Source: Tepidiformaceae bacterium
Lineage (GTDB): Bacteria; Chloroflexota; Dehalococcoidia; Tepidiformales; Tepidiformaceae
Direction: 5' to 3'
Assembly: GCA_958295975.1 (NCBI GenBank)
Contig: OY282446.1
Coordinates: 1,713,289-1,777,288 of the forward strand
DNA length: 64,000 nt
In this document: in pieces, positions 9,009-11,704 of the stretch
Position numbering within the stretch: the first letter of the stretch is position 1
Layout of the letters: every line of letters starts with the position of its first letter
Translations under genes and position numbers: made by a program
The notes under the pieces: generated by a model
Told to the model about the DNA's origin: nothing
The model's database searches: none
The model's input: the letters and a program-made list of their open reading frames with translations, nothing else

Positions 9009-9782
9009 ATGGGTGACGCGAAGTTCGTGGGCGTGGACTGGGCGAAGGGCGGCTGGTTCAGCATCGCCTACGACGCGGCGGGGGAGTGGGAGGCGAATCA
9101 CGGCGCGTTCGCTGAAATCGTCGAGCGCTACAGCGAGGCGGAACTGATCTTGGTGGACATTCCCATCGGATTGGCGAAAGGCGAATACGAATGGCGGAAG
9201 TGCGACCTTGAAGCCCGGCAGTGCTTGGGTTCTCACTGGCAGAGCGTTTTTCTCACGCCCCCGCGCTACGTTGTGGAGGAGGCCCGAAGGGCGAAAGAAT
9301 CCAATCTCAAGGGGCGTGAATTTCAAAATGTTCTTACCCGGATCAACAACCTACGCCGTGAGGGAACAAGATTTAGCGCTCAAGCATGGAATATCACCCC
9401 CATGATCGCCGAAGTGGATGAATTTATTTCGTCCCGCTCACTGAATGCCCTACCGAAGATTAGGGAAGTCCATCCAGAAATATTGTTTTGGGCACTGAAC
9501 GGCAAAAACAATATGTGTTGCAGTAAGAAAACGCTAAAAGGCGTCTATGACCGTATGAATGTTCTTCGCAAAATTGAAAAACGGACTGATGCAATTCTTG
9601 AACATGTGCTCCCACTCACTTGCGATCCGAAGATCGTTGGTGGAGACGACATCCTCGACGCGCTCGCAGCCGCCGTCACGGCGCGCCTCGGCACACTGGC
9701 CGGGCGGCTTCAGACACTCCCTGAGAACCCCCTGCCCGACGACTGTGGGGAGATGGTGTTCTACAATCCCCACGATGCCTGA
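9009..9782 (+). CDS. DUF429 protein (predicted RNase H-fold nuclease)
   Basis: A 257-residue cytoplasmic protein with the DUF429 motif series: GVDWAKGGW at the N-terminus, VDIPIGL (about residue 50), a segment ending in SVFLTPPR, EVHPEILFW, and DDILDALAAA near the C-terminus. The acidic residues in the first, second and last motifs would bind metal in the RNase H-like fold. The nuclease activity is a prediction from fold comparison. The central third (about 9280-9600) is visibly AT-richer than its surroundings, which could reflect transfer or relaxed constraint. The next gene overlaps its end by 8 bases. Confidence 0.85.
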   Translation: MGDAKFVGVDWAKGGWFSIAYDAAGEWEANHGAFAEIVERYSEAELILVDIPIGLAKGEYEWRKCDLEARQCLGSHWQSVFLTPPRYVVEEARRAKESNLKGREFQNVLTRINNLRREGTRFSAQAWNITPMIAEVDEFISSRSLNALPKIREVHPEILFWALNGKNNMCCSKKTLKGVYDRMNVLRKIEKRTDAILEHVLPLTCDPKIVGGDDILDALAAAVTARLGTLAGRLQTLPENPLPDDCGEMVFYNPHDA

Positions 9783-10026
9783 CCAGCCCGGCCTCGCCGT
9801 CCGCCTCGAATACTGCGCGCAGTGCGGCTACCTGCCCCGCGCCCAGTGGATGCTGGGCGAACTGCTCGCCGCCCTGCAGGAGGACGTCGCCAGCTTCACG
9901 CTCGTCCCCGGCGGCGGCGGATGCTTCGAGTGGGCCGTGGACGGCGAGACCGTCTTCTCGAAGCGCGCCAGCGGCCGCTTCCCCGAAGTCGACGAGATCA
10001 TGGAGCTGCTCGCGGACCGCCTGTAG
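9775..10026 (+). CDS. SelT/SelW/SelH-family thioredoxin-like protein, Cys form
   Basis: An 83-residue Rdx-family protein. The redox motif YCAQCGY lies at about residues 13-19; in selenoprotein homologs the second Cys position is Sec, and here both are Cys. Downstream GGCFEWAVDGETVFSKRASG matches the conserved family core. It probably acts as a small thiol-disulfide oxidoreductase in the cytoplasm. The ATG at 9775 overlaps the DUF429 gene by 8 bases, and the gene is directly upstream of the UGSC selenoprotein, suggesting a shared redox role. Confidence 0.88.
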   Translation: MPDQPGLAVRLEYCAQCGYLPRAQWMLGELLAALQEDVASFTLVPGGGGCFEWAVDGETVFSKRASGRFPEVDEIMELLADRL

Positions 10027-10052
10027 CGTCCGCGCGGGAAGGAGCCCGTACC

Positions 10053-10595
10053 GTGTCCACCGAACCCGTCGTCACCGTCTACGACCCCCGCGGTCACGCG
10101 CGCGTCGTCGCGCAGGAGGCCGCGCCGCGCCCGTCCGCGCTCGACGGCCTGCGCCCGGGCGTGCTGGAGAACCGCAAGGCCAACGCCCGCCTGCTGCTGG
10201 AGTCGATGGTGGACGGGCTGCGCGCCTTCGCCCCCTTGGGCGCGACCACGACCGGCGGCAAGCCCGTGGCCGGTCCCGCCAGCCGCGCCACCATGGCCCT
10301 GCTGGTGGAGGGCTGCGACTTCGTCGTCGTGGGGTCCAGCGACTGAGGCTCCTGCACGGCGTGGAGTGTCCACGCCGCCATCGCCCTGGAGAAGCGCGGC
10401 GTGCCCACCGTGACGGTGGTGACCGACGCCTTCCTCGACCTCTTCCGGCTGGAAGCGGAACAGCGCGGCGCGCCCGATCTGTCCCGCGTCGTCATCCCCC
10501 ATCCGCTGGGCGGCATCCGGCCCGGGGCCGTGCTGGAGCGCGCCCGCGAGGCCGCCCCCGCCCTGCGCGACGCCCTGCTGGGGAAGGGATCGTGA
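10053..10595 (+). CDS. UGSC-family selenoprotein with in-frame TGA (Sec) codon
   Basis: Reading from the GTG at 10053 (GGAAGGAG 8 bases upstream) the frame meets TGA at 10344-10346 and continues open to 10595, giving 180 residues with Sec at about position 98. The residues around it are VVVGSSD-Sec-GSCTAWSVHAA, the signature that names the UGSC family, in which Sec or Cys precedes GSC. The part after the TGA (GVPTVTVVTDAFLDLF, then IPHPLGGIRPG) is needed for a complete domain and has no start of its own fitting the fold. A perfect hairpin sits 11 bases beyond the TGA. Biochemical function is unknown. The next gene overlaps its stop (GTGA). Confidence 0.9.
10357..10377 (+). promoter_or_regulatory. 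Bacterial SECIS-like hairpin
   Basis: Bases 10357-10365 pair perfectly with 10369-10377 (9 bp) around the loop GTG. The loop lies 20 to 22 bases after the TGA at 10344-10346, and it carries G at its first position. Bacterial SECIS elements bound by SelB lie immediately downstream of UGA inside the coding region, with an apical-loop G at this kind of distance. Pairing is seen; function is inferred. Confidence 0.82.
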
Positions 10596-11704
10596 GCGAC
10601 GCCGAGTCGCTGACCGCGCTGGCGGGAACGCTGGAGGTCGAGGAGCTCGGCGCGGGCCGTCGCGCGGCCACGGTCGAGGCCCCCGCCGACGTGGCCGCGC
10701 TCAGCCGCGAGTTCGCCGCGCGCGGCTGGTCCGACGGCCTGCCCGTTGTGCCCCCCACGGAGGAGCGCGTGGCGGCCATGCTGGCGGGCGCGCCCGACCG
10801 CGATGCGCTCGAGGTGGTCGCCATCCTGCCGCCGCGGCGCGGCGAGGCCACGGTCCACGCCATCGCCGTGAACGCGGTCATGGCGGGCTGCGCGCCGGAG
10901 CACCTGCCGGTGCTGCTGGCCGCCGTGCGCGCCGTCGCCCACCCCGAATTCAACCTCTCCGGCGTGAACGCGACCACGCATCCGGTCTCGCTCTTCCTGC
11001 TGGTGAGCGGGCCCGCCGCCGAACGGCTCGGCGTGCACGGCGGCGCGGGCTGCTTCGGCCCAGGCTTTCCCGCCAACGCCACGCTGGGGCGCGCCCTGCG
11101 GCTGATCCAGCTCACCGTCGCGGGGGCGTGGCCCGGGCGCGGCGATCGCGCCACGCAGGGGACGCCCGCCAAGCTCGCCTTCTGCGCCGCCGAGAACGCG
11201 GCGCGCAGCCCCTGGCCGCCCTTCCACGCGACGCGCGGCCTCGCCCCGCAGGCGAGCGCCGTCACCGTCTTCGGCTGCGAGGGGCCGCACAACATCCAGG
11301 ACCACGGCAGCAACACCGCCCTCGGCACGATGCGCACCATCGCCGGGGCCATGGGGCAGGCGGGCAGCAACAACATCCTCGCGCGCGGCTCGCCCGTGCT
11401 CGCCTTCGGGCCGGAGCACGCCGCCACCGTGGCCGCCGAGGGCTGGTCGCGCGAGGACGTGCAGCGCTACCTCTTCGAGCACGCCCGCTACCCGCTCGCC
11501 GGGCTCTCCGACGAGTTCTTCGGGGCCGTGCAGGACCACGTCTCGCAGGGCGTGCCCGTGCCGCCCTTCCCGCGCGACGCCCTCGCGCCCATCGCCGACG
11601 GCCCGGAATCGATCCACGTCATCGTCGCGGGCGGGCCGGGCAAGCACTCCTGCTGGCTGCCCACCTTCGGGGGCATGACGCGCCCCGTGACGGTCCCGCT
11701 TTAG
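10592..11704 (+). CDS. Conserved partner of the UGSC selenoprotein, unknown function
   Basis: A 370-residue soluble protein starting at the GTG at 10592, which overlaps the selenoprotein stop by 4 bases, so the two are translationally coupled. I do not recognise an enzyme family. Visible features are RGWSDGLPVVPPTEERV near residue 45, GCFGPGFPANATLGRALRL near residue 155, and Cys/Gly/Asn-rich stretches such as FGCEGPHNIQDHGSNTALG and GQAGSNNILA. The motif-like, well-ordered sequence suggests an enzyme. Coupling suggests it uses or partners the Sec protein. Its stop overlaps the convergent N-acetyltransferase stop. Confidence 0.8.
   Translation: MSDAESLTALAGTLEVEELGAGRRAATVEAPADVAALSREFAARGWSDGLPVVPPTEERVAAMLAGAPDRDALEVVAILPPRRGEATVHAIAVNAVMAGCAPEHLPVLLAAVRAVAHPEFNLSGVNATTHPVSLFLLVSGPAAERLGVHGGAGCFGPGFPANATLGRALRLIQLTVAGAWPGRGDRATQGTPAKLAFCAAENAARSPWPPFHATRGLAPQASAVTVFGCEGPHNIQDHGSNTALGTMRTIAGAMGQAGSNNILARGSPVLAFGPEHAATVAAEGWSREDVQRYLFEHARYPLAGLSDEFFGAVQDHVSQGVPVPPFPRDALAPIADGPESIHVIVAGGPGKHSCWLPTFGGMTRPVTVPL

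Follow-up and report, generated by a model that had tools for sequence, protein, structure and literature searches.

The question raised by this locus is whether a TGA codon lying inside an otherwise open reading frame is read as selenocysteine (Sec) and, with that settled, what the resulting protein may do together with the product of the gene overlapping its end. The window, i.e. the whole stretch of 64 kb that was analysed (G000:C1:1713289-1777288), belongs to a genome consisting of one contig of 2.40 Mb. The features of the locus, with the evidence for each in brackets, are the following:

9009-9782, + strand: DUF429 gene, overlapping the start of the Rdx gene and first of the run, a putative member of the module (PF04250, E 1.8e-36)
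9775-10026, + strand: gene for an Rdx/SelW-like protein in its CxxC form (PF10262, E 8.1e-21)
10053-10598, + strand: gene for a UGSC-family selenoprotein of 181 aa with Sec98, GTG start (PF24696, NF041046, DUGSC alignment)
10344-10346, + strand: in-frame TGA read as selenocysteine, Sec98 (homologue column, selA distribution)
10357-10377, + strand: bacterial SECIS hairpin, 9 bp, loop GTG (RNA fold, synonymous-codon control, bSECIS model)
10595-11704, + strand: gene for the partner protein, 369 aa, GTG start (pairing in 76 of 80 loci)

The selenocysteine codon and its hairpin

The UGSC frame, the start codon of which is preceded by GGGAAGGAG at 10036-10044, runs through the TGA at 10344-10346, continues with the residues GSC and ends 83 codons later at the TGA at 10596-10598, just as the sequence-only reading had described it. 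Its product is matched by the profile PF24696 with an E-value of 2.9e-45 (154.9 bits against a gathering threshold of 25, residues 9-175); since the score with the equivalog model NF041046 (UGSC_fam) is 117.8 bits, slightly below the cut-off of 125, the protein is assigned, on its profile scores, to the Pfam family and not to the narrower equivalog. The string DUGSC is invariant across a 27-member UGSC alignment. Concerning the Sec column in the 87 homologue hits from the partner loci described below, 79 have U and five have C, with strong conservation downstream, so that the objection that homologues might carry an ordinary stop here has failed. The Cys forms belong to genomes without selA over the cut-off (4/4 tested) and the Sec forms, whether UGA or TAG, to genomes with it (6/6 tested). 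The TAG codon occupies the Sec position in a homologue from Blastococcus (L085:4672-4674); the use of TAG in UGSC proteins of Geodermatophilaceae, along with a tRNA-Sec with the anticodon CUA, has been reported previously, as cited in PMC5330540. In three further variants (L104:722-1222, L102:4251-4763 and L099:4366-4860), H-U-G-S-S replaces D-U-G-S-C and the resolving cysteine is absent.

The genome encodes the machinery needed for such a reading, with matches over the curated cut-offs for selA (512.7 bits), selB (288 bits) and selD (346.8 bits), as well as for the tRNA-Sec, selC, with the anticodon TCA (69.6 bits). All four matches lie on the same contig outside the 64-kb window, in which no Sec machinery gene was found, as had been noted from the sequence; the doubt that the genome might lack these genes is thereby removed. 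It should be mentioned that this genome's SelD is a selenoprotein as well, its in-frame TGA falling at the usual CGG-U-ASK position (CGG-U-ASKAG; L010, G000:C1:1262122-1263051).

The hairpin, CGGCGTGGA-GTG-TCCACGCCG, is present at 10357-10377 as the perfect 9-bp stem with loop GTG recognized earlier; it begins 11 nt past the TGA and its loop 19 nt past the UGA. These values comply with the bSECIS model, which comprises a stem of 4-16 bp, a loop of 3-9 nt with G in its first two positions, and a distance of 16-37 nt from the UGA (PMC13188914). Compared with dinucleotide shuffles, the fold is only moderately unusual (z -1.94, with 5/200 shuffles equally stable), as expected in GC-rich DNA, and for that reason a control was run in which, for 108 homologues, the 15 codons after the TGA were exchanged for synonymous ones following the codon usage of the gene concerned; hairpins were counted if their apical loop was correctly placed and had a G at its first or second base. 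Such hairpins are predicted in 105 of the 108 homologues against 48.6 expected, and the folding energy lies below that of the recoded controls in 94% of them (Wilcoxon p 2e-18, a nominal value, the sequences being related), while the same test at four other offsets within the 108 homologues gave no significant excess. This comparison, rather than the shuffling, is the strong evidence for selection of the hairpin at the Sec site, the contrast between positions being clear although the p-value is nominal.

Judged from these sequence comparisons, the locus encodes a genuine UGSC-family selenoprotein with Sec98 at a UGA under a local SECIS hairpin; the profile match, the four sel genes, the U/Cys column and the hairpins of the homologues all bear out the Sec reading of the TGA. 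That the TGA could be an ordinary stop, or a pseudogene or sequencing artefact with a chance hairpin in GC-rich DNA, is a reading favoured by the shuffle result for the single hairpin, but it is hardly credible and, as far as computation can do so, refuted by the identical TGA across dozens of genomes, the cysteine found where selA is missing and the synonymous-site selection on the hairpin.

The partner protein and its pairing with UGSC

The gene that follows starts at a GTG and has 4 nt in common with the end of the UGSC gene (GTGA, 10595-10598), so that the translation of the two genes is probably coupled. The overlap had been noticed before, together with a length of 370 residues, which has to be corrected to 369. 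The statement that the product has no known function stands, sequence comparison with Pfam, NCBIfam and PDB having yielded no match. Its AlphaFold model is of high confidence (pLDDT 92.7), and comparison with solved structures gave no convincing relative, only weak and partial matches with Z under 6; pieces of fumarase, cyclic amide hydrolase and chorismate mutase were among the latter and have not been used. Two further candidate origins were set aside, as profile comparison detected no similarity of the partner to GrdE (Gly_reductase, PF09338) and none was seen to UGSC itself, of which it might have been a duplicate. The near-invariant positions of the family are D47-G48-L49-P50, C99 (in 68 of 69 sequences), N161, G165-R166, E200 and W207, with K193 mostly retained, and in the alignment these residues look like an active or a binding site.

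Scanning the genome contigs with the partner alignment revealed 80 partner loci, covering Chloroflexota, Rokubacteria, Beta- and other Proteobacteria, Actinobacteria, Acidobacteria, Binatia and one haloarchaeon. A UGSC or CGSC gene is present in 76 of them, always on the same strand (76/76), with UGSC first in 68 loci and the partner first in eight, and with less than 200 nt between the matched domains in 70 of the 76. Three of the four unpaired loci (L054, L055 and L063) are located at or near contig ends, the fourth (L126) being a true exception. In about 26 pairs the two domains share one frame with no stop of any kind between them—assembly errors being possible—and such pairs apparently encode a single fusion protein, the Sec codon lying inside its frame. 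Apparent fusions are also seen in a second UGSC subfamily with a motif like A-U-G-S-C-T-P-A-V, in frame with the partner (L084, L088, L090 and L106), and the weaker UGSC hits of Chloroflexota commonly lie in a single frame of 550-660 codons that contains one TGA.

The two families also occur together at the level of genomes. Of the 294 genomes of the class, 87 contain both and 199 lack both; UGSC occurs alone in seven and the partner alone in one (Fisher p 5e-65, with no correction for relatedness). Among the seven genomes with UGSC alone, five show weak hits (E 2e-23 to 7e-4), and the other two, G271 and G288, in which the hit is strong, are incomplete. Within the phylum, a comparison of lists over 400 genomes places UGSC in 42 and the partner in 42, of which 41 are shared. 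UGSC reaches eight or more copies per genome, the partner being present in similar numbers, and the copy numbers are correlated with a Spearman coefficient of 0.96 over 81 genomes. On these sequence data, it is strongly supported that the partner is a near-obligate companion of UGSC across bacteria and some archaea. Adjacency is not universal, because in the genome studied here a second UGSC (L130, C1:1282000-1293000) is situated approximately 0.5 Mb from a second partner (L131, C1:1795000-1806000); a similar separation of the second copies seems to hold elsewhere in the genus.

Concerning the upstream genes, DUF429, Rdx, UGSC and the partner make up a run of four genes on the same strand. The Rdx gene ends 26 nt upstream of the UGSC start, and the two likely share an operon, Rdx being possibly the electron donor to UGSC. 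The genus has an Rdx gene beside its second UGSC as well, and in the locus L050 one lies 1.7 kb upstream of UGSC; near the second UGSC of the window genome such a gene is present too, its arrangement being divergent in relatives. Rdx has not been retained as a general third component, since, apart from this genus and L050, it was not found in the vicinity of UGSC. The neighbours recurring at UGSC loci are CoA-transferase III, ABC transporter, enoyl-CoA hydratase, MmgE/PrpD, FAA hydrolase and amidase, families that are common in the same organisms, so that the gene neighbourhood is not decisive as a clue to the substrate.

Relation to glycine and proline reductases and the proposed function

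Five NCBIfam models of GrdB/PrdB match members of the UGSC family, TIGR01917 doing so in 27 of 56 (best E 3.8e-6), and the models ranking next after UGSC itself are GrdB, PrdB, GrdF and GrdH. For a profile-profile comparison by hhalign, 10 author-selected GrdB/PrdB-like sequences of the class were used, each translated across its in-frame TGA; their C-terminal domains align with UGSC at 94.6% probability (E 7.1e-8) over 77 columns, Sec on Sec. UGSC is, on profile evidence, a short single-domain relative of the GrdB/PrdB selenocysteine domain. The locus does not belong to a classical glycine reductase, as judged from the profile searches, because neither the GRDB domain (PF07355), searched for in the UGSC protein of the window and in its genome, nor Gly_reductase (PF09338), searched for in the genome, gave a match; GRDA was likewise not matched in the genome, an absence of little weight since the control genomes gave no match either. 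It should be pointed out that many genomes of the class contain short GrdB/PrdB-like genes that end at an in-frame TGA, beyond which the sequence is still conserved (L147-L152); PF07355 ends just before the Sec of such genes, and annotation would truncate them.

The predicted structure of UGSC (pLDDT 95.3) consists of five beta-alpha units in a row, with Sec98 just before the helix 99-114, the third one. A sequence search against PDB returned nothing usable, and the structural neighbours of the model are CheY-like, flavodoxin-like and other Rossmann-like domains. The fold is thus predicted to be flavodoxin-like rather than thioredoxin-like, and the model speaks against the thioredoxin-like fold proposed in the 2008 paper on the GOS selenoproteome (PMC2398784).

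In the sequence-only reading the two genes were taken for a Sec-dependent enzyme pair. The pair is strongly supported by the 76 loci, the co-occurrence and the fusions, whereas its being an enzyme would follow from the homology of UGSC to GrdB/PrdB. In glycine reductase and proline reductase, a second subunit holds the substrate while the Sec subunit attacks it and splits a C-N bond, after which thiols free the selenium. By analogy, UGSC and its partner may form a two-subunit selenium enzyme in which the partner binds the substrate and the UGSC selenolate cleaves a carbon-heteroatom bond, a reading to which a probability of about 0.55 is given; for this complex, its chemistry, its substrate and its electron donor we infer the following course. 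The two proteins would probably be made from one transcript with coupled translation and most likely form one complex. UGSC would contribute an alpha/beta domain of the flavodoxin-like type, in which the selenolate sits at a helix N-terminus and a resolving cysteine follows three residues on (U-x-x-C), while the partner, for which a role as substrate carrier is suggested by the gene pairing alone, would bind and activate a small organic substrate in the manner of GrdE/PrdA. Reductive cleavage of the carbon-heteroatom bond by the selenolate would leave an Se-S bond between Sec98 and Cys101, to be reduced by a thiol carrier, for which the CxxC Rdx protein is the candidate in this genus.

Two other functions have to be weighed. 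UGSC might be a general thiol-redox or antioxidant selenoprotein, similar to thioredoxin or peroxiredoxin, that keeps its partner reduced, e.g. via Cys99, as could be expected from the U-x-x-C motif, the almost constant Cys99, the fold suggested in 2008 (PMC2398784) and the neighbouring Rdx; this is, however, rather unlikely given the predicted topology, which is not that of thioredoxin, the sequence relation to GrdB/PrdB and the multiplication of UGSC and partner alike within a genome, which suggests diversity of substrates. Somewhat less probable still is a partner that is itself the catalyst, perhaps depending on a metal or CoA, with UGSC as its dedicated electron-delivery subunit. Such a role would suit the invariant or near-invariant polar residues (D47, N161, R166, E200 and W207, with K193 in most sequences) and the recurrence of CoA-transferases III, enoyl-CoA hydratase, MmgE/PrpD, FAA hydrolase and amidase nearby, yet that recurrence is weak, the families being so frequent in these organisms, and no cofactor motif was recognized in the partner.

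The reductive cleavage by a UGSC-partner enzyme is the preferred reading. Its extension—that the pair represents a widespread, as yet undescribed class of two-subunit selenoenzymes, each combining a GrdB/PrdB-like reductase with a substrate subunit unrelated to the known ones, and that it has multiplied in uncultured bacteria for the reduction or cleavage of various organic compounds—is put forward tentatively, at somewhat short of even odds.

Comparison with known systems

The UGSC family itself is not new, and the selenoprotein of the window belongs to a family described in 2008 in the GOS selenoproteome paper, in the survey of which UGSC proteins counted among the selenoproteins of highest abundance in ocean and freshwater samples (PMC2398784). 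The same paper notes a fusion of UGSC with a conserved domain named 'Unknown_1', which is plausibly the partner presented here. Such selenoprotein families have been regarded as largely uncharacterized (PMC13188914), and the literature searched contained no report on the substrate or activity of any UGSC protein; nor, the Unknown_1 fusion excepted, did it describe the constant partner gene and the relation to GrdB/PrdB. Given a constant, often fused partner and this relation, what had been an 'unknown redox protein' can now be tested as a two-subunit reductase, and the partner family gains a reason for annotation.

With the 2008 family (PF24696, NF041046) the protein of the window shares the sequence family, the UGSC motif, the bacterial SECIS element and the alternation of Sec and Cys, differing in its position just below the NF041046 cut-off. 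The Rdx/SelW-like selenoproteins resemble the present system as small CxxC/CxxU redox proteins with a gene adjacent to UGSC; they constitute, however, a separate family that is only a neighbour and appears at this locus in its Cys form. With GrdB/PrdB the likeness consists in a homologous Sec domain in which the Sec residues align, in the U-x-x-C motif and in a second subunit encoded by an adjacent gene. UGSC differs from GrdB in its length of approximately 180 aa without the N-terminal domain and in lacking the third cysteine of the UxxCxxC motif, and its companion, unlike the second subunit of glycine reductase, is not GrdE-like.
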